In this document: piece by piece, positions 14,950 to 51,219 of the stretch | How positions within the stretch are numbered: the stretch's first letter is position 1 | Layout of the letters: every line of letters starts with the position of its first letter | NCBI GenBank assembly: GCA_028714695.1 | Contig: JAQTLX010000011.1 | Coordinates: forward strand, 1 to 64,000 | Length of the DNA stretch: 64,000 nucleotides | Direction of reading: 5' to 3' | Source of the DNA: Ignavibacteria bacterium | GTDB lineage: Bacteria > Bacteroidota > Ignavibacteria > Tepidaquicellales > Tepidaquicellaceae | Notes under the pieces: model-generated | What the model saw: the letters and a program-made list of their open reading frames with translations, nothing else | Told to the model about the DNA's origin: nothing | Database searches by the model: none | Position numbers and translations under genes: made by a program

Positions 14950-16842
14950 ATGAAAAAAATTGTACCCGTACATATTTATTTGTCATTCATAACCCTGATA
15001 TTTGCATTCTTCATTTTTACGAATTCATATTCCCAGAACATTCCATTTACAATTCTTCATTTTAACGATTCGCATTCTAATCTGACAGGCATGGGACCAA
15101 AAAACGAATTTGGAGATTACTTAAAAGGCGGATTCGACAGGGCTGCATCTTTAATTAAATCCGTCAGAAGCACAGACTCAAACGTAATGGTTTTTCATAT
15201 AGGTGATTATTCAACAGGTTCGTTTTTCTTTAATAGATATTTCGGCGTTCCCGAACTAATGCTCTTCAAAAAATATAATTTCGATGCAATTGCGCTCGGC
15301 AATCATGAATTTGATTTGGGACCTGCAGTACTTTTCGCGGCTTTGTCTCAGTCTTTTCTTCCGGGCTCGCTGCCTGTACTCTCTGCAAACCTTAATATGA
15401 GCGGTTTTCCGGCGTTGAGCAGTTACGTAACGCCGTATAACATTAAAACAATCGACGGGGTCAAAATCGGTCTGTTCGGACTTACAATTCCCGACCCTTC
15501 AAGCAATCCTTACCCTGTCGTTATAAGCGACAGCATTCTGCAGATTGCTCAAAGCACAGTTTCAGTGCTTCAGTCAAGCGGGTGCAATGTCATAATCTGC
15601 CTGTCGCATCTCGGCTATGGCTATGACAGTCAGATTGCATCGCTCGTTTCGGGAATACATATCATACTCGGAGCGCACGATCACAGTACATTTTTGCAGC
15701 CCGTGCCAATTCCCAATCCCGCAGGTTTCAACACACTCGTATGTCAGGCAGGCTCTTACTATGAACATGCCGGAAAAATGAATTTAGTTTATAACAAAGG
15801 CACACTCAGTATGACAGGCTATCAGTTAATAGACATTGATTCGAACATACCGCGAGATGATTCCGTAAGAGCATTTCTGGATTCGCTTAAACCGGGAATC
15901 GTTTCGAAATATGGAGACGTGTTTACGAACACAGTCAGTTACGTAATAAGGGATATTGCGCCTTCATTTAATGAACTTATGCCGGAACGCGATACTCCTC
16001 TCGGTAATTTCATTAATGATGCGCACAAAAGAACGACAGGCAGTCAAATCTCCCTTACCGCAATAGGTCTGATGTCGCAGCCATTGTACAGGGGTCCGTT
16101 AACAGGCGAGGATATACTTCGCTCTGTACCGTACGGATATGATACATCGAACGGTCTTGATCTGAAACTCGTGAAATTCAACATCACAGGGAGCGAACTT
16201 AAGAGAGGACTTGAACTGGTACTTTATGCAGCGACAAGCGATATCAGTTACCTGCCGCAAACATCGGGACTGACATTCGATTATAACTCGACTCTGGCGC
16301 TTGGATACAAAATTCTTCTGCCCACTATGAAAGTAAACGACACTTTGATAAGCCTTACCGGCATTTATTCCGTTACGGCAAACGAAGGGTTGTTCAAAGC
16401 CCTGAATCTGCTTGGCATAACAGTTTCGAACGTTGAAGTTACAGGCATAAACGAATACACGTCAATTGCAAATTACGCAAACCAATTTCGTAAGATAAGT
16501 TCAGGAACTAAAGGCAGATTAAAAGACGTCAGCGTTACATCCGTGAAAAATCCCGTTGCCCTTGCAAAAGAATTTGAATTATTCCAGAATTATCCAAACC
16601 CGTTCAATCAAACTACAATTATTAATTATCAAACTTCAATTACAGGAAACATTAGGATTAAAGTTTTTGATATAGCAGGAAGAGAATTAACCACGCTCGT
16701 AAATGAGAGAAAAAACCCCGGAAAGTATTCCGTATTATTCGATGCCGGCAGTTTATCCAGCGGTATTTATTTCTATCAGTTATCAATTAACTCGCCAGGG
16801 CGAGAACGATTAGAAGCGAAGAAAATGCTATTAATAAAATAG
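14950..16842 (+). CDS. Secreted 5'-nucleotidase/metallophosphoesterase with T9SS sorting domain
   Basis: 630 aa. The signal peptide covers roughly residues 1-29 (ending near FTNSYSQ). Metallophosphoesterase domain: LHFNDSHSNL (Asp/His ligands), HIGDYSTGS, ALGNHEFDLGP (the GNHE box), ICLSHLGYG and GAHDHS. A 5'-nucleotidase C-terminal domain spans about 320-520 (RDTPLGNFINDA). The last 80 residues form a type A T9SS sorting domain with QNYPNPFNQ, GIYFYQL and KKMLLIK. It is expected to be exported by T9SS and anchored or released outside, dephosphorylating nucleotides or other phosphoesters. It begins 30 bp after mocA on the same strand, so it may be co-transcribed with the purine operon, supplying nucleosides (inference). 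Confidence 0.88.
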   Translation: MKKIVPVHIYLSFITLIFAFFIFTNSYSQNIPFTILHFNDSHSNLTGMGPKNEFGDYLKGGFDRAASLIKSVRSTDSNVMVFHIGDYSTGSFFFNRYFGVPELMLFKKYNFDAIALGNHEFDLGPAVLFAALSQSFLPGSLPVLSANLNMSGFPALSSYVTPYNIKTIDGVKIGLFGLTIPDPSSNPYPVVISDSILQIAQSTVSVLQSSGCNVIICLSHLGYGYDSQIASLVSGIHIILGAHDHSTFLQPVPIPNPAGFNTLVCQAGSYYEHAGKMNLVYNKGTLSMTGYQLIDIDSNIPRDDSVRAFLDSLKPGIVSKYGDVFTNTVSYVIRDIAPSFNELMPERDTPLGNFINDAHKRTTGSQISLTAIGLMSQPLYRGPLTGEDILRSVPYGYDTSNGLDLKLVKFNITGSELKRGLELVLYAATSDISYLPQTSGLTFDYNSTLALGYKILLPTMKVNDTLISLTGIYSVTANEGLFKALNLLGITVSNVEVTGINEYTSIANYANQFRKISSGTKGRLKDVSVTSVKNPVALAKEFELFQNYPNPFNQTTIINYQTSITGNIRIKVFDIAGRELTTLVNERKNPGKYSVLFDAGSLSSGIYFYQLSINSPGRERLEAKKMLLIK

Positions 16843-16889
16843 TTCTTTTCAATTAGTAATTATTAATTAGTAATTAGTAATTAAAAACT

Positions 16890-16917
16890 TTAGCAATTAA
16901 TTGTGATTAATTGCTAA
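16890..16917 (+). terminator. Perfect 12-bp stem-loop behind the nucleotidase gene
   Basis: TTAGCAATTAAT, loop TGTG, ATTAATTGCTAA: 12 paired bases with no mismatch. It starts 48 bp after the stop. The stem is AT-rich and no clear T-run follows, so intrinsic termination is uncertain. The same hairpin with one mismatch lies at 19417-19444 behind the next cargo gene. Confidence 0.45.
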
Positions 16918-16948
16918 TTGTTAATTGTTAATTGCTTATCTTTTATTG

Positions 16949-17123
16949 CTAATCACTAATCACTAATTGCTAATCACTAATTGCTAATCACTAATTGCTA
17001 ATCACTAATTGCTAATCACTAATTGCTAATCACTAATTGCTAATCACTAATTGCTAATCACTAATTGCTAATCACTAATTGCTAATCACTAATTGCTAAT
17101 CGCTAATTGCTAATTGCTAATAG
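16949..17123. repeat. Heptanucleotide tandem array (CTAATCA/CTAATTG), 25 units
   Basis: Twenty-five contiguous 7-bp units beginning CTAAT. Units alternate between CTAATCA and CTAATTG, so the perfect period is 14 bp: CTAATCACTAATTG is repeated ten times without change at 16956-17095. The right end decays to CTAATCG, CTAATTG, CTAATAG and ATAATTG. The period is not a multiple of three, which fits non-coding DNA. Confidence 0.95.
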
Positions 17124-17267
17124 ATAATTGATAATTATTAATTATTAATTACTAATTACTAATTGAAAAAGTGCTTTCAATTTCGTATTGACAATATCAC
17201 AAGAATTTCGCACGTTAATTAAAATCCCATAATTGATTATAATCGAATAATTTTCATTAAAAATAAT

Positions 17268-19376
17268 ATGAAAAATCTCATACTTATTCTTTTCTTATCA
17301 GCAGCAATAAATTGCACCGCTCAATGGACACAAACAGATGGAATTTACGGCGGACAGGTTAACTCATTAACTGTTTCCGGAACAAATATTTTTGCAGGTA
17401 CCGACCGCGGCGGTGTATATTTATCTACAAATAATGGTGCAAACTGGATTGCAAGGAAAAACGGGTTGACGAATCTTGTAGTTTACTCAGTTGTTTTTTC
17501 AGGAGCGAATATATTTTGCGGAACAGAAGGCGGTGTGTTTTTGTCAACAAATTCCGGTTTAAATTGGACATCAGCCGGATTATCGGGGCATTATATCCCC
17601 GCTCTTTTGGTGTTTGGCTCTAAACTTTTTGCCGGCTCTGCTGATAGCGGTGTATATGTATCTACAAATAACGGAACAAACTGGTCTGCTTCAAATAATG
17701 GAATTGGTTTACGATTGATTAATACTTTTGCGGTTTCAGGTACAACAATATTTGCGGGTGCAGGAAGTTGTGGGGTTTATCGGTCAACAAATAGCGGTAA
17801 TAACTGGAGTTGGGTAAATAACGGATTTCCAAACACAATCGTTAGAGCATTTGCTGTTTCAGGAAGTAATCTGTTCGCAGGAACCTATGAAGGAGTTTAT
17901 GTATCGTCAAATAATGGAACAAATTGGACATTAGCGGGCTTAGGTCAACGTGATGTTCGTGCTCTCGCAGTTTCAGGAAATAATCTATTTGCGGGTACGG
18001 ATAGCGGAGTGTATTTATCAACAAATAACGGATCTTTCTGGTCCCGTATGAACACCGGTTTAACGAATCTTAATATTTTTGCACTTACATTTTCTGAATC
18101 TGTTTTAATTACGGGAACCTGGGGCGGTATTTTCTTATCTACAAATAATGGCACACTCTGGACGGCTGCCAATAACGGACTATCGAATCATTGTATTAAC
18201 GCATTAACATCTTTGGGTACAAATATTTTTGCAGGTACCAACTGGGGTGTATTTATGTCGTCCGATAACGGTATAAACTGGGCAGGTGTAAATAACGGAT
18301 TTATTAAGGACGGATTGAGAGAAAAAAATATTCTGGCTATGGCTGTTTCAGGAAATAACCTGTTTGCCGGAACTGACGGTGCCGGTATATTTAAGTCAAC
18401 CAATAACGGTGCAAACTGGTTTGACGCCAGCAGCGGATTAACTAATATACATGTTTCTTCTTTTTGCGTTTCCGGTACAAACCTTTTTGCCGGAACGTGG
18501 TTCAACGGCGGTATATTTAAATCAACAAATAATGGTATAAATTGGACTGCTGCAAATAACGGAATAAACGTTGAACATATTACATGCTTTACAACCATAG
18601 GAACTAATATTTTTGCAGGTACAAGCGAAGGGGTTTTCCTGACTTCTAATAATGGAATCAACTGGGTGCAGGTTAATAATGGTTTGCCCGGTCCAGAAGG
18701 CCTGTATGTCGTTTCTATTACTGCACTCGGTGCAAAACTATTCGCAGGATTGGTTTCAAACGGCATTTATTTATCCACAAATAATGGAACCAGTTGGACT
18801 GCTTTCAATAATGGATTACCGAGTATTTATGTTGATGCTCTTGAATCTTATGGAACAAACTTGTTTACCGGAACAAGCGATTTTGAATCTAATACTGCCG
18901 GCATATTTTTATCTTCTAACTCAGGAGTTAATTGGATAAATAGAAATCAGGGGTTTTCTAATGTTCCGATTGTTTTTTCAATATTAATAGCAAACAATTA
19001 CATATTCGCAGGAACATGCGGTCAGTCTGTCTGGCGCCGCGCTTATTCCGATATTATAGGCGTTCAAACCATCGGCACTGAGATACCGGAAAATTATTCT
19101 CTGTCTCAGAACTACCCCAATCCCTTTAACCCGGTTACAAAAATAAAATTCTCCATACCCGAAAACGGAAACCGGAATAAAGGAAATGGTATTGTCACAT
19201 TAAAAGTTTATGACATACTCGGAAAAGAAATTGAGACACTCGTGAATGAATCGCTTCAGTCCGGAACGTATGAAACAACTTTCGACGGCTCCGCGCTGAA
19301 CAGCGGAGTGTATTTCTATAAATTATCGATTGACAATCAGCAGTTGGCAGCGAGGAAAATGCTATTAATAAAATAG
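17268..19376 (+). CDS. Secreted repeat beta-propeller protein with T9SS sorting domain
   Basis: 702 aa. Signal peptide at residues 1-18 (ending INCTAQ). Thirteen repeats of about 40-45 residues carry a [S/T]xNxGxNW motif (for example STNNGANW, STNSGLNW, SSNNGTNW) preceded by V-x-N-LFAGT, the blade signature of Ycf48/sortilin-like propellers. The last 90 residues are a type A sorting domain: SQNYPNPFNPVTKIKF, GVYFYKL, ARKMLLIK. It should be a cell-surface or secreted protein; ligand unknown. Its downstream DNA is nearly the same as that behind the preceding nucleotidase gene, suggesting local duplication of the 3' region. Confidence 0.88.
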   Translation: MKNLILILFLSAAINCTAQWTQTDGIYGGQVNSLTVSGTNIFAGTDRGGVYLSTNNGANWIARKNGLTNLVVYSVVFSGANIFCGTEGGVFLSTNSGLNWTSAGLSGHYIPALLVFGSKLFAGSADSGVYVSTNNGTNWSASNNGIGLRLINTFAVSGTTIFAGAGSCGVYRSTNSGNNWSWVNNGFPNTIVRAFAVSGSNLFAGTYEGVYVSSNNGTNWTLAGLGQRDVRALAVSGNNLFAGTDSGVYLSTNNGSFWSRMNTGLTNLNIFALTFSESVLITGTWGGIFLSTNNGTLWTAANNGLSNHCINALTSLGTNIFAGTNWGVFMSSDNGINWAGVNNGFIKDGLREKNILAMAVSGNNLFAGTDGAGIFKSTNNGANWFDASSGLTNIHVSSFCVSGTNLFAGTWFNGGIFKSTNNGINWTAANNGINVEHITCFTTIGTNIFAGTSEGVFLTSNNGINWVQVNNGLPGPEGLYVVSITALGAKLFAGLVSNGIYLSTNNGTSWTAFNNGLPSIYVDALESYGTNLFTGTSDFESNTAGIFLSSNSGVNWINRNQGFSNVPIVFSILIANNYIFAGTCGQSVWRRAYSDIIGVQTIGTEIPENYSLSQNYPNPFNPVTKIKFSIPENGNRNKGNGIVTLKVYDILGKEIETLVNESLQSGTYETTFDGSALNSGVYFYKLSIDNQQLAARKMLLIK

Positions 19377-19823
19377 TTCTTTTCAATTAGTAATTAGTAA
19401 TTAGTAATTAAAAACTTTAGCAATTAATTGTGATTAATTGCCAATTGTTAATTGCTTATCTTTTATCGCTAATCGCTAATCGCTAATTGCTAATTGCCAA
19501 TTGCCAATCGTTTATCGCTAATTGCTAATCGCTAATTGCTAATCGCTAATTGCTAATCGCTAATTGCTAATTGCCAATCGTTAATTGCTAATTGCCAATT
19601 GCTAACGGATATTTATTAATTATAAATTTAAAAAGTGCTATTAAATTCGGATTGACAATATCATAAAAATTTAGCACGTTAATTAAAATATCATTTAGTG
19701 CAGCATTCTCGCCAAGCATGTTCTTTAAAAAATCGAATGATTATTTGGCATCAAAAGTAATTCAAGTGTTCCCAAAAAAGTTGAAACAAAATAATTCCGC
19801 AAAGCAAACATAGGAGATATGAA
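19377..19823. other. Second repeat-filled spacer between T9SS cargo genes
   Basis: No gene is seen. It repeats the plan of 16843-17267: TAATTAGTAATTA motifs, a near-perfect TTAGCAATTAAT hairpin (19417-19444, one A-C mismatch), a heptad array (19469-19608), then the AAAAGTGC...TTGACAATATCATAA...AGCACGTTAATTAAAAT block (19630-19692). From about 19700 to 19823 the sequence is unique and probably holds the promoter of the following gene; AGGAGA at 19811-19816 is a good ribosome binding site for the ATG at 19824. Confidence 0.7.
19469..19608. repeat. Second heptanucleotide array (CTAATCG/CTAATTG), 20 units
   Basis: Twenty contiguous 7-bp units, mainly CTAATCG and CTAATTG, with drifted copies CCAATTG, CCAATCG, TTTATCG, TTAATTG and CTAACGG. 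It is related to the 16949-17123 array but uses CG where the first uses CA, and it is less homogeneous. It lies 92 bp after the stop codon of the propeller gene. Confidence 0.93.
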
Positions 19824-22541
19824 ATGTTTAAAAAATTATTCTTGTTAGTCTGCATCACTTTGTTCGGCATTAATTTAATTTATGCTCAAAAAACAAAATC
19901 GAAAATCCCAAGAGTACCATACAAAATTGTAATGAACGGCGATGCCTTAGTCGGAACGCGTGTTGACGGCAAACCAAACTCGTTCGGACTGCCTTCACTC
20001 ATTGATTTTGTCAGGAAATTTAAAAGTGAAGACAAAGCATATCCGCAATATCCAGTTACATTTGTGAATACCGGCTGCACTACTCTTTACGATATATGCT
20101 CGAATGGAAGCGCAGTTGAAATATGGCAGGACCCGGCAGAACCGGATAATATTCATGCGGTATTTATGACAGCGCCTCTTAACGATGGTTTATCGTTCCC
20201 TAATAGAAGGTCAAAATATTATTTCTCATCTGACAGAGGAACCTCATGGACATATCTTGCTGATATCCCGACAGGTACAAGAAGCGGGTACCCAACAATA
20301 AGCGGCCTTTCAGACGGCACTGCTTTAGTTGCCAACCACAGTCTTGACGGCGGCGGAGTATTAAGATGTCAGGCCTATAAAGATGCTTTCCCGGGAGTTG
20401 GAAGTTTCATAAGACTTGACGCTCCGGGTAATAATGGTTACGAATGGCCGAGAGTCATGCCTACAAGCAGTCTTTCCCTTACAAATAAATTCGTTATGAT
20501 AGGCTCGCTTAAAGATCAGGATACGACCCGATATAATGTATGTACAAATTTTTATTCCACTCCCAGCACATGGTTAGGCTGGAATACAATTCCCGCAGAG
20601 CAGTCTGAAGCATATGCCATCGGAAGAGGATCTGACGGAAGAATCGGAATAGCCTATATAAATGATTACAATAATGCTCCTAATTATTATGGTGACGTAT
20701 GGTTTATTGAATCTACAAATAACGGCACTTCATTTTCAACTCCGCTCAGAATATTTGATGCTAATTTTGATACAGGAGGAGATAGTCTGGGTGCATTTAA
20801 AGGCATAAGTATATCTTATAAAGGAAATGTACCTGCTGTTGTATTTGAAACAGTATTACAAACACCGAATGCAGGATATTTCCCTTTTGCACCTTCAAAT
20901 ATTAGATTCTGGTCGCCCTCACTTCCCGGCTCGGACCCTAACAGAAGTATTATTATTGTCGATACATCGAACGTACCTTTCCATCCGTTTGTAGGTGTCA
21001 ATGACTTAATGGCTCCTATATGCAGACCAAGTTTAGGCATTTCTTCGGATGGACGCGTTTTATTTATGGCGTTTTGCGCCGCATCCGGCAATATCGGGGG
21101 TTCTGTTGATTCTACAACTTTTATGGATATTTGGTTTTCTTATTCTTTAAACGGGGGCAGTACCTGGTCAATGCCTTCAAAAATTAATCCCGCATCGCCG
21201 ATAAAAGACTGGAGATATGTAAGTGTATCGCCTGTTAATGATATAGGCTCAAATTATTATTGCAATATGGTTGCTTTAAAGGGCAGTATTCCCGGCTCTT
21301 ATATTAACGGTTCCGATAATGGTCAGTCTATGGAAGAGTTCTGGTCGATAAGAGTTTCAGAATATTTCGAACCGCAGGTACCTAATCCCCCCGTGTTAAT
21401 AAGTCCTACGAATGCTGCGACAGGTGTTTCATTAACTCCTATCTTCGACTGGTCTGATGTATCAGGTGCGACATATTATAATTTTCAGATGGCGTCAGAT
21501 AATAATTTCACTAATATCATACTGAACATTAACAATTTATCAACCTCAGGTTATCAGGCTGCTTCCGCGCTTTCACCGAATACAACGTATTATTGGAGAG
21601 CCATGGCCGGTATGCCTGGAATTACAAGCGGTTGGTCAAACCAATGGAGTTTCACAACTCTCGGCGGACCTGCCGCTCCGACTTTGTTAAGCCCTGCTAA
21701 CGGCTCAAATATTTTAACAACAACTCCTACTCTCGACTGGAACGATGTCTCAGGCGCGGTTTCTTATGAAGTACAAATAGCAACTGACGTAAATTTTGTT
21801 AATCTGATTGTCAATATAGGCACAGTAAATTCTCAATATATTACACCCTCTGGGACTTTAGCAGGCAATATGACATATTACTGGCGGGCAAGAGCAGAAA
21901 ACAGTACCGGAACAGGACCATGGTCATCAGTCTGGAACTTCAGAGTGGCCGCTCTGCCTACCGCTCCTACGCTTGTTTCACCGCCGAATTATTCATCGAA
22001 CCAGCCTCCGACTATATTATTAGATTGGGATAGTCTGGCATCTGCATCGACTTACAGGCTCCAGATAGCATCAGATTCACTTTTCATTTCAACGGTATTC
22101 GATACAAGCGGAGTGACGCGTTCTTATGTGCGAATGCGTTCGGGAATCCTTTTGCCTAACGGAAAATATTATTGGAGAGTTAACGCAACGAATATCGCAG
22201 GTACCGGTCCATGGTCCGTTATGTGGAATTTCAGAGTAAACCCTTCAGGCATTTATCAGTATTCCTCCGAGACGCCGAATGAATTTAAATTATATAATAA
22301 TTACCCGAATCCGTTTAATCCGTCTACAAACATTAAGTTTGCAATACCGAAATCAGCGTCCGTAAAAATTTCAGTATTCGACGTTTCGGGAAAAGAAATT
22401 GAAGCGCTCGTAAATGATAAATTGCAAGCAGGCATATATGAAACACGGTGGAACGCTTCAAAATGTTCCAGCGGTATTTATTTCTATAAAATTATTGCAG
22501 GAGATTTTTCAGAAACAAAGAAAATGTTATTAATAAAATAG
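19824..22541 (+). CDS. Secreted multidomain protein: sialidase-like region, three Fn3-like repeats, T9SS sorting domain
   Basis: 905 aa. Signal peptide at about residues 1-21 (ending NLIYAQ). Residues of roughly 70-510 resemble sialidase/BNR propellers (STNNGTSFS, SSDRGTSW, YSLNGGSTW). Three tandem fibronectin type III-like modules follow at about 520-810, each with P-x-L-[ILV]-SP near its start, a DW-[SDN]-x-[VL] core (FDWSDVSGATYY, LDWNDVSGAVSY, LDWDSLASASTY) and YYWR[AV]. The C-terminal 80 residues are the sorting domain (NNYPNPFNPSTNIKF, GIYFYKI, KKMLLIK). It is likely a surface protein exported by T9SS. Enzymatic activity cannot be assigned because sialidase catalytic residues are not evident. 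Confidence 0.87.
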   Translation: MFKKLFLLVCITLFGINLIYAQKTKSKIPRVPYKIVMNGDALVGTRVDGKPNSFGLPSLIDFVRKFKSEDKAYPQYPVTFVNTGCTTLYDICSNGSAVEIWQDPAEPDNIHAVFMTAPLNDGLSFPNRRSKYYFSSDRGTSWTYLADIPTGTRSGYPTISGLSDGTALVANHSLDGGGVLRCQAYKDAFPGVGSFIRLDAPGNNGYEWPRVMPTSSLSLTNKFVMIGSLKDQDTTRYNVCTNFYSTPSTWLGWNTIPAEQSEAYAIGRGSDGRIGIAYINDYNNAPNYYGDVWFIESTNNGTSFSTPLRIFDANFDTGGDSLGAFKGISISYKGNVPAVVFETVLQTPNAGYFPFAPSNIRFWSPSLPGSDPNRSIIIVDTSNVPFHPFVGVNDLMAPICRPSLGISSDGRVLFMAFCAASGNIGGSVDSTTFMDIWFSYSLNGGSTWSMPSKINPASPIKDWRYVSVSPVNDIGSNYYCNMVALKGSIPGSYINGSDNGQSMEEFWSIRVSEYFEPQVPNPPVLISPTNAATGVSLTPIFDWSDVSGATYYNFQMASDNNFTNIILNINNLSTSGYQAASALSPNTTYYWRAMAGMPGITSGWSNQWSFTTLGGPAAPTLLSPANGSNILTTTPTLDWNDVSGAVSYEVQIATDVNFVNLIVNIGTVNSQYITPSGTLAGNMTYYWRARAENSTGTGPWSSVWNFRVAALPTAPTLVSPPNYSSNQPPTILLDWDSLASASTYRLQIASDSLFISTVFDTSGVTRSYVRMRSGILLPNGKYYWRVNATNIAGTGPWSVMWNFRVNPSGIYQYSSETPNEFKLYNNYPNPFNPSTNIKFAIPKSASVKISVFDVSGKEIEALVNDKLQAGIYETRWNASKCSSGIYFYKIIAGDFSETKKMLLIK

Positions 22542-22647
22542 CATTAAATTCAATTAGTAATTAGTAATTAGTAATTAATAATTAATAATTAGAAAACAGT
22601 AATTTTGATAATAAGTAATTATTACTGTTTTTGATTCTGAATTCTTG

Positions 22648-32938: not shown

Positions 32939-33025
32939 AGCAATAGGTAGATTTATCGCTCGCTTTGAGCAATACGTAGATTTGTTGTTTACTTTGAGCA
33001 ATAGGTAGATTTATTGTTCGCTTTG
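32939..33025. repeat. 29-bp tandem repeat, three copies
   Basis: Copies at 32939-32967, 32968-32996 and 32997-33025. Each begins AGCAATA-GTAGATTT and ends in CTTTG. First and third copies differ at about three positions; the middle copy differs more. There is no spacer between copies, so this is not a CRISPR. Confidence 0.9.
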
Positions 33026-33125
33026 AAGATTGATAAATCATTTTCTGCGATGAGAATTAATGAATCGAAATGAAGGGAGGAGAATTCTTTCTCTTCTTTA
33101 TATGTCGAATTCCAATCGCTATTCG

Positions 33126-33214
33126 TTAATCGTTAATTGCTAATCATTAATCTCTAACCTTTAATCGCTATTCGCACCACTAATTGCTAATTATTAATTA
33201 CTAATTGCCAATAG
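33126..33214. repeat. Degenerate heptad array at the end of the DUF4835 gene
   Basis: Units TTAATCG, TTAATTG, CTAATCA, TTAATCT, CTAACCT, TTAATCG and CTATTCG, a 5-bp break, then CTAATTG, CTAATTA, TTAATTA, CTAATTG and CCAATAG. It is the same 7-bp family as the arrays at 16949 and 19469 but more decayed. It ends at the base before the minus-strand stop codon (33215). Confidence 0.75.
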
Positions 33215-34171
33215 TTATCTCGCCTTCTTCTTTGCTTCCTCATATATCCTCTGATGCGCGGCGTCCATCTGCATAAGTCTGTCATACACTCCCCTGTCGC
33301 CGTAATTCAGAAATGTGTCTGCAATTTCCTGTGCCTTGTTTTCAAAGAATAGGTCTATATTGAATGCTTTCATTTCTTTCTTCTTTAAATTGCTTATCTT
33401 TTCGACGGCATTAAGTATGTACGCGTAAGCATTTCTTGTCAGCCCCAGTGAATCCAGTCCCATATAGTGATATTCATAAAAAGAATTTCTGTATTCGTCA
33501 AATCTCGAGTTCATCAGTTCCTGCATCATCACAAGTCTCGACGGCTTTGAACCGCCGCCTGTTTCAGTCCATCCGTTTCTGTTATCCGGCAATATCGGCT
33601 TGTTACAAATATCAATCGCTTTCTGGAAGTACACACTTCTGTTTTTAGGGTGGTCTTTCGGGAAAAACGAATCCTGATCATAGCCGAGCATCAGATACGC
33701 ATAATAATCGAAGAAACTCAGAAATGAGTCGAACCTCACATCGTTCTTTGTAAACTGAAGGGCGCGGTTATAAGCAAATGTAAATCTCTCGTCAATGTAT
33801 TTGAATAAAACCGAATATTTAGGATTTATCTTTTTGTCGCTTTTATCAATAATTCTCTGGCTTACTATAAGCACTTTCGCGTCATAGGAATCAGTTCCGA
33901 TAGCGGCGTTAAACGTAATCTGTATCTGCGCTTTTATCTTGTACGCATCGGCGCCGGATTTGTTGTTTTCATTAAATAATGCATTATCGTAAAACTTATT
34001 CTTATTGAAGTAATCCTCTAACTGCTGTTTCATATCCTTAACGCGGTCTTTCGCTTCGGCATTCAGGTTGTCCGTATTCAACTGTACTGTCATATCGAAA
34101 TCCTGACCATGCGATTTTACTGCAAAAACCACAGTAAATAAAAAGATATATATTATGAACCTTTTTAACAT
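33215..34171 (-). CDS. DUF4835 family secreted protein
   Basis: 318 aa. Signal peptide at about residues 1-22 (ending KSHGQDF). The body begins DFDMTVQLNTDNLN and includes FDSFLSFFDYYAYLMLGYDQDSF and SRLVMMQELMNSRFDEYRNSFYEYHYMGLD, features of the DUF4835 family that is common in Bacteroidota. Function is unknown. It is divergent from the PorV-like gene with a 59-bp spacer, which hints at shared control. Confidence 0.8.
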   Translation of the reverse strand: MLKRFIIYIFLFTVVFAVKSHGQDFDMTVQLNTDNLNAEAKDRVKDMKQQLEDYFNKNKFYDNALFNENNKSGADAYKIKAQIQITFNAAIGTDSYDAKVLIVSQRIIDKSDKKINPKYSVLFKYIDERFTFAYNRALQFTKNDVRFDSFLSFFDYYAYLMLGYDQDSFFPKDHPKNRSVYFQKAIDICNKPILPDNRNGWTETGGGSKPSRLVMMQELMNSRFDEYRNSFYEYHYMGLDSLGLTRNAYAYILNAVEKISNLKKKEMKAFNIDLFFENKAQEIADTFLNYGDRGVYDRLMQMDAAHQRIYEEAKKKAR

Positions 34172-50857: not shown

Positions 50858-51219
50858 TTATATGTTTTTTACTATTTTCTGTTTATTTTGATATTTAAAT
50901 CTAACCCCTAAATTCTTACTACTAGAATCTAACTTTTGTTCTTCAACAAATTTCGCTTTTCTGCAATTCGATTACAATCCAACAATGAATCTATGAAAAT
51001 CAGATACTAATCCATTCATATCTCGTTTTTCTCCGTGGCTCTCTGTGAGATCTCCGTGGCTCTCTGTGAAACTGCTCTTTATCAGAAAACCAAATCACAA
51101 TTTAATTACAATCCGACAATGAATACAACAATATCAAATTTTGCAATTTCAATTTTAAACATTTAATTATTAATTACTAATTATCTTGAATCTTACTTAT
51201 TATCGAAATATTTTAAACT
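50858..51219. other. Spacer with short direct repeats upstream of kdsD
   Basis: It holds a 21-bp tandem pair (51030-51050 and 51051-51071, TCTCCGTGGCTCTCTGTGA) and two dispersed copies of ATTACAATCC-ACAATGAAT (50971-50990 and 51105-51124) differing at one base. The last 40 bp carry TAATTATTAATTACTAATTA. No gene is seen. Confidence 0.7.

Follow-up and report, generated by a model that had tools for sequence, protein, structure and literature searches.

Two homologous heptad-array spacers flank a T9SS cargo gene that is absent from the corresponding junction of a sister species

Intergenic DNA of heterocystous cyanobacteria is known for scattered arrays with units of seven bases, called heptanucleotide STRR repeats. 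Another heptad, TAACTGA, forms direct repeats in Beggiatoaceae, Cyanobacteria and some Bacteroidetes, with many intergenic sets and, in some Bacteroidetes, long arrays (MacGregor 2015, PMC4679880). Elizabethkingia anophelis has two nearly identical intergenic regions containing heptamer assemblages, whose flanking ORFs share stretches of high identity, and a role of TAACTGA-type heptads in gene rearrangement has been suggested (PMC4679880). BrickBuilt of Porphyromonas gingivalis is a minisatellite within a MITE, with a 23-nt unit and a conserved leader and tail, found 49 to 591 nt from genes (Klein 2015, PMC4596501). Borg elements, which are archaeal and extrachromosomal, carry intergenic tandem repeats of fast turnover, some of which start within or at gene ends (PMC9879509).

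The locus described here lies in a window (the whole stretch of DNA analyzed) of 64,000 nucleotides, from contig JAQTLX010000011.1 of an Ignavibacteria bacterium. The draft genome (G000) spans 3.85 Mb and has at least 150 matches to T9SS sorting domains. Three genes in succession, A, B and C, encode T9SS-sorted proteins, and heptad arrays stand behind each of them. The features are as follows, in window coordinates.

14950-16842, + strand: gene A, a secreted 5'-nucleotidase/metallophosphoesterase with a T9SS C-terminal sorting domain (Pfam Metallophos, 5_nucleotid_C, Por_Secre_tail)
16815-16945, + strand: left block, copy 1 (last codons of A, TTCTTTT, AATTAGT heptads, hairpin, TTATCTTTTA), from alignment with 19349-19465
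16851-17165, no strand assigned: heptad array 1, AATTAGT passing into TAATCACTAATTGC and then ACTAATT (TRF period 7/14)
17161-17225, + strand: right block, copy 1, with about 43 bp between it and the gene B start; identity to copy 2, 88%
17268-19376, + strand: gene B, a BNR/Sortilin-type propeller protein with a T9SS sorting domain (Pfam), without counterpart at the sister junction
19349-19465, + strand: left block, copy 2, from alignment with copy 1
19385-19605, no strand assigned: heptad array 2, AATTAGT passing into TAATTGC/TAATCGC/CAATTGC (TRF)
19625-19690, + strand: right block, copy 2, from genome search and spacer alignment
19824-22541, + strand: gene C, a T9SS-sorted protein whose ortholog adjoins A in the sister species (66% identity to L121 2-2578)
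22520-22729, no strand assigned: a third, more distant left-block copy (85% over 72 bp) with an inverted heptad array, between C and the glycyl-tRNA synthetase gene; long foldback, z = -12
33114-33206, - strand: a further heptad array (TRF), directly past the stop of a DUF4835 gene (33215-34171, - strand)

The spacer behind A (16815-17225) aligns with the spacer behind B (19349-19690) end to end, and the two are homologous. In the one, homology sets in at the last codons of A and stops about 43 bp short of B; in the other, it runs between the last codons of B and a point about 133 bp short of C. Across the left blocks there were 115 matches and 2 substitutions in 117 aligned bases, along with two 7-base indels, each amounting to one heptad unit; in the right blocks, 53 of 60 aligned bases matched and 7 were substituted. 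Edges are abrupt, identity falling to 26% upstream and 36% downstream of the block limits. This agrees with the preliminary description, which had reported a near-identical pair of blocks forming direct repeats around 17268-19376: identity collapses only beyond the blocks. The arrays enclosed by the blocks do differ, as it had also reported, with a TAATCACTAATTGC 14-mer array at 16956-17165 and a TAATTGC/TAATCGC array at 19435-19605, of unequal lengths. Both spacer copies contain the hairpin TTAGCAATTAATTGTGATTAATTGC, which was found at no other locus in the part of the genome that was scanned. Spacer 1 has inverted arms (16846-16883 and 17132-17169, 38 bp, 92% complementary); spacer 2 lacks the right inverted arm.

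The left block begins inside coding sequence, such that A and B are identical at 26 of their final 27 bases, as compared with a mean of 17.6/27 for the coding ends of T9SS genes of this genome, where only 0.7% of pairs reach 25. Together with the block identities and the drop at the edges, this excludes chance, shared composition or a shared protein motif as a full explanation of the likeness. A genome search with the right block returned two places only at any significant level (88% over 65 bases, E = 4.8e-17), the next-best place having E = 0.04. When the whole spacer was the query, left and right blocks occurred together only in the A/B pair, and the remaining matches were to heptads. A weaker third copy of the left block lies behind gene C (22520-22591, 85%).

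In the sister species (G001), the nearest genome compared, the neighborhood is syntenic: the upstream gene order is the same and C then follows A directly (L121). Only 95 bp separate the two genes there, with no B, no heptads and no right block, and the right block showed no homology beyond chance to this spacer. At this one junction, the B-less state being known from one genome only, there is no repeat element and no recognizable short target duplication. Gene B has thus been gained or lost exactly between the repeats, in keeping with the earlier proposal that these could mediate deletion, duplication or exchange of a T9SS cargo gene. The sister spacer, however, retains no repeat copy, and so is not a simple product of deletion by recombination.

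Cargo differs elsewhere as well. Another member of the genus, the third species compared, has next to glycyl-tRNA synthetase a relative of C accompanied by genes for a different propeller protein and one more T9SS protein, and another T9SS gene lies between glycyl-tRNA synthetase and the next genes; these differing cargo genes indicate that the locus turns over T9SS cargo. Three T9SS genes that a third species has beside glycyl-tRNA synthetase (L400 1755-7928, G002:C121) have no counterpart at the corresponding places of the window. In G003, a stretch related to the right block (44 bp, 84% identity) lies some 83 bp in front of another T9SS-type propeller gene, which suggests that the right block probably belongs to the 5' side of propeller-type genes and that the copy before C is out of place. 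The propeller family of B is strongly expanded in G009, a genome of the same family of bacteria, with 74 matching stretches vs 5 to 30 in the other genomes. Base composition does not clearly set B apart (GC3 of 0.32, vs 0.41 for A and 0.35 for C).

The duplicated unit holds non-heptad DNA on both sides of its array and a relative has a B-less A|C junction, two facts that favor gain of B by recombination; B was probably gained between A and C along with the second spacer copy. Pointing the same way are the end-to-end homology of the spacers, the right block unique to the pair, the cargo differences in the third species, the G003 relative of the right block, and the lower divergence of the left block relative to the right (2/117 vs 7/60 substitutions, p = 0.008). 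The last of these speaks for gene conversion at a later stage, or for exchange tracts that end within the arrays, while the seven-base indels within an otherwise near-identical left block indicate that unit-wise length change is ongoing.

The account that we consider reasonably probable is that the spacer behind A, comprising a T9SS coding-sequence end, a heptad array and the right block, was duplicated as one block whose copies now flank B. Homologous recombination through a spacer common to donor and recipient would most likely have brought B in between A and C, either on a circle or fragment bearing B and one spacer or by unequal exchange with another cargo gene that was later lost. Gene conversion may then have kept the left parts alike, and slippage would have altered the arrays by seven-base increments. 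What we infer from these comparisons is the route by recombination, the direction (gain over loss) and the gene conversion; no donor locus carrying B with one spacer was found.

The main rival would have B ancestral between A and C and lost in the sister, with gene conversion making the two spacers here alike. The closer likeness of the left blocks, the third related copy behind neighboring gene C and the turnover of T9SS cargo at the locus would all suit it. However, the right block before C has no counterpart in the sister A|C spacer, and conversion would need to have carried it there. We consider such a loss unlikely, and prefer gain of B through a shared spacer.

The remaining explanations depend on the nature of the arrays themselves, which are not confined to this locus. 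Three consecutive TAATNNN units gave 601 matches in this genome, and spacer 2 used as a genome query led to 75 places. Units vary widely (AATTAGT, AATTAAC, TAATTGC, GAATCTA, AGTTAGA, TAACTCC and others), and yet a genome-wide rule holds: the period is exactly 7, the array is next to a stop codon, and its orientation is fixed. In a 797-kb sample of this genome, taken at fixed intervals regardless of arrays, only period 7 and its double, 14, were enriched in spacers past stops, lags 4-6 and 8-13 not. At a moderate threshold, runs were present in 17 of 423 spacers after stops vs 1 of 479 before starts (G000, G001 and G002 pooled; p = 3e-5). Where the nearest upstream gene edge was within 60 bp, AATTAGT-type arrays stood after a same-strand stop at 40 of 45 sites, from loci mostly chosen for their arrays, unlike the sampled counts for periods, for stops vs starts and for T9SS genes. 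All such array-position counts use simple ORF calls rather than curated annotation. The possibility that the stop codon serves as the first unit of the array was suggestive in many cases, where the next TAR falls 7 or 14 bases on, but it is not general and we do not claim it.

Arrays mostly lie behind housekeeping genes, and a few per cent of gene ends carry one. The preliminary description had proposed a 3' cassette shared by T9SS genes; the 797-kb sample contradicts this, with arrays behind 2 of 69 T9SS genes vs 8 of 515 other genes (Fisher p = 0.33). Nor is the left-end sequence peculiar to such genes: TAG-TTCTTTTCAATTAGTAATTA is found behind A and B and also behind a UbiA gene and one further gene. 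Lacking T9SS enrichment and having an identical start behind these four genes, the 3' cassette is general, and not a T9SS feature.

Twelve array-bearing gene ends of G000 were compared across species (GlyRS, UbiA, FTCD, transketolase-like, peptidase C69, FAD oxidoreductase, epimerase, DNA polymerase I, Ham1, aminotransferase, FBPase and DUF4835). About eight also have arrays right past the stop in G001, G002 or both, with units and lengths that differ from those of G000; in G003 and G004 the same ends mostly have none. Arrays thus persist at orthologous gene ends, the figures describing persistence at these sites rather than a rate, since the genes were picked for their arrays in G000. Four-unit matches within the genus numbered 403 (G000), 248 (G001), 21 (G003) and 1 (G004).

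Several repeats of other kinds were noted. The window has a 21-bp unit (three times seven) in tandem at 912-1115, CGGAAACATTTTGCACTTTTT; another 21-bp unit, TCTCCGTGGCTCTCTGTGAGA, in nearly two perfect copies at 51030-51069; and three copies of a 29-bp unit at 32939-33026, just beside the heptad array at 33114-33206. At L174 1240-1719 (G000:C2:290739-291218) is a 480-bp array, mostly of TAATGAG, whose orientation is opposite to the rule; it ends in a short stretch of the usual array type. A MITE-like repeat in G001, behind FTCD and DNA polymerase I (L320 and L325), has ends resembling AATTAGAGACTTCTGAAAAACGA and an interior CCGAGAGTCTCCC palindrome, and adjoins heptad arrays at several gene ends.

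Could the two spacers be separate insertions of a MITE-like element comparable to BrickBuilt, with heptad arrays as its inverted ends (CAATTAGTAATTA...TAATTACTAATTG)? Such an element would account for the inverted arms of spacer 1, for a common array start, TTCTTTTCAATTAG, found at five array sites and directly past a TAG stop in four of them, and for a 33-nt core of similar sequence that follows several G002 genes. Yet we saw no constant interior, no constant length and no target duplication, inverted arms resemble each other no more within a locus than between loci, and array sequences at orthologous gene ends differ between species. The right block, moreover, is unique to the A/B pair. With its interior not constant and the right inverted arm missing from spacer 2, a classic MITE is unlikely, and we rate the two-insertion explanation as improbable.

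A shade less probable again is that the arrays are functional 3'-end elements under selection, such as AU-rich foldback terminators or 3'-UTR binding sites, and that the likeness of the pair reflects a need of both genes for one such element. Their place directly past stops, fixed orientation and recurrence in G000, G001 and G002 at matching gene ends would be expected of such elements, as would RNA foldback z values from -2.6 to -12. Against this, few gene ends have an array, arrays are nearly absent from same-genus G003 and G004, and neither the unique right block nor the shared coding end would be explained. We considered the hairpin as a selected terminator in view of its extreme foldback energies and rejected it: arms do not appear co-adapted, those of the same locus being no more alike than those of different loci (8 loci, permutation p = 0.99). 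Foldback therefore follows from shared orientation, and we do not call the arrays selected terminators, although a foldback terminator role is possible for some of them. No known RNA families were found in the window, and neither sigma-70 promoters nor GC-rich terminators were enriched above shuffles in the region.

Misassembly, in which a repeat array wrongly joined A to B or B to C, is very improbable: several arrays do sit at contig ends of this draft genome, showing that they break assembly, but substitutions, 7-bp indels and the composition of the whole array set the spacers apart, so that they are not one sequence used twice, and each runs without a break from left block through array to right block.

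Gain of B by recombination through a shared spacer is thus the reading that we retain. More tentatively, gene ends of this lineage might carry a renewable feature: 7-base arrays seeded at or next to stops in one orientation, which sister species would retain behind the same genes as the units are replaced. Position and period, and not sequence, would then be what some process or selection acts on, and the arrays would be standing recombination sites for the exchange of cargo genes. In a genome rich in related repeat spacers, a cargo gene that two spacer copies flank, and that a relative lacks there, offers a concrete route for T9SS cargo shuffling, and spacer-type repeats may help bacteria to insert, swap or lose surface-protein genes.

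As a regularity, stop-adjacent arrays of period 7 and labile sequence had no description in the open-access literature that we searched, and a literature text search with AATTAGTAATTA returned an unrelated paper only. Among described systems, BrickBuilt is the closest case of a repeat within a MITE. It too has tandem units in varying number between genes, bounded by inverted ends, and several of its copies adjoin T9SS (PorSS CTD) genes; here, by contrast, units are of 7 nt, there is no conserved leader or tail, and most arrays lie a few bases from a stop. The STRR repeats, likened by description, are also seven-base intergenic arrays, differing in unit sequence and lineage. Borg repeats are a looser parallel, since their units are perfect and of varied length and occur also within ORFs. 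TAACTGA-type repeats share the tandem seven-base unit. They use mainly one unit and in Beggiatoaceae lie upstream of start codons, whereas the arrays here directly follow stops, with the strong excess over starts given above, and use units such as AATTAGT, AATTAAC, GAATCTA and AGTTAGA, TAACTGA not being among those seen. The closest precedent for the A/B spacer pair is the pair of heptad spacers in Elizabethkingia.
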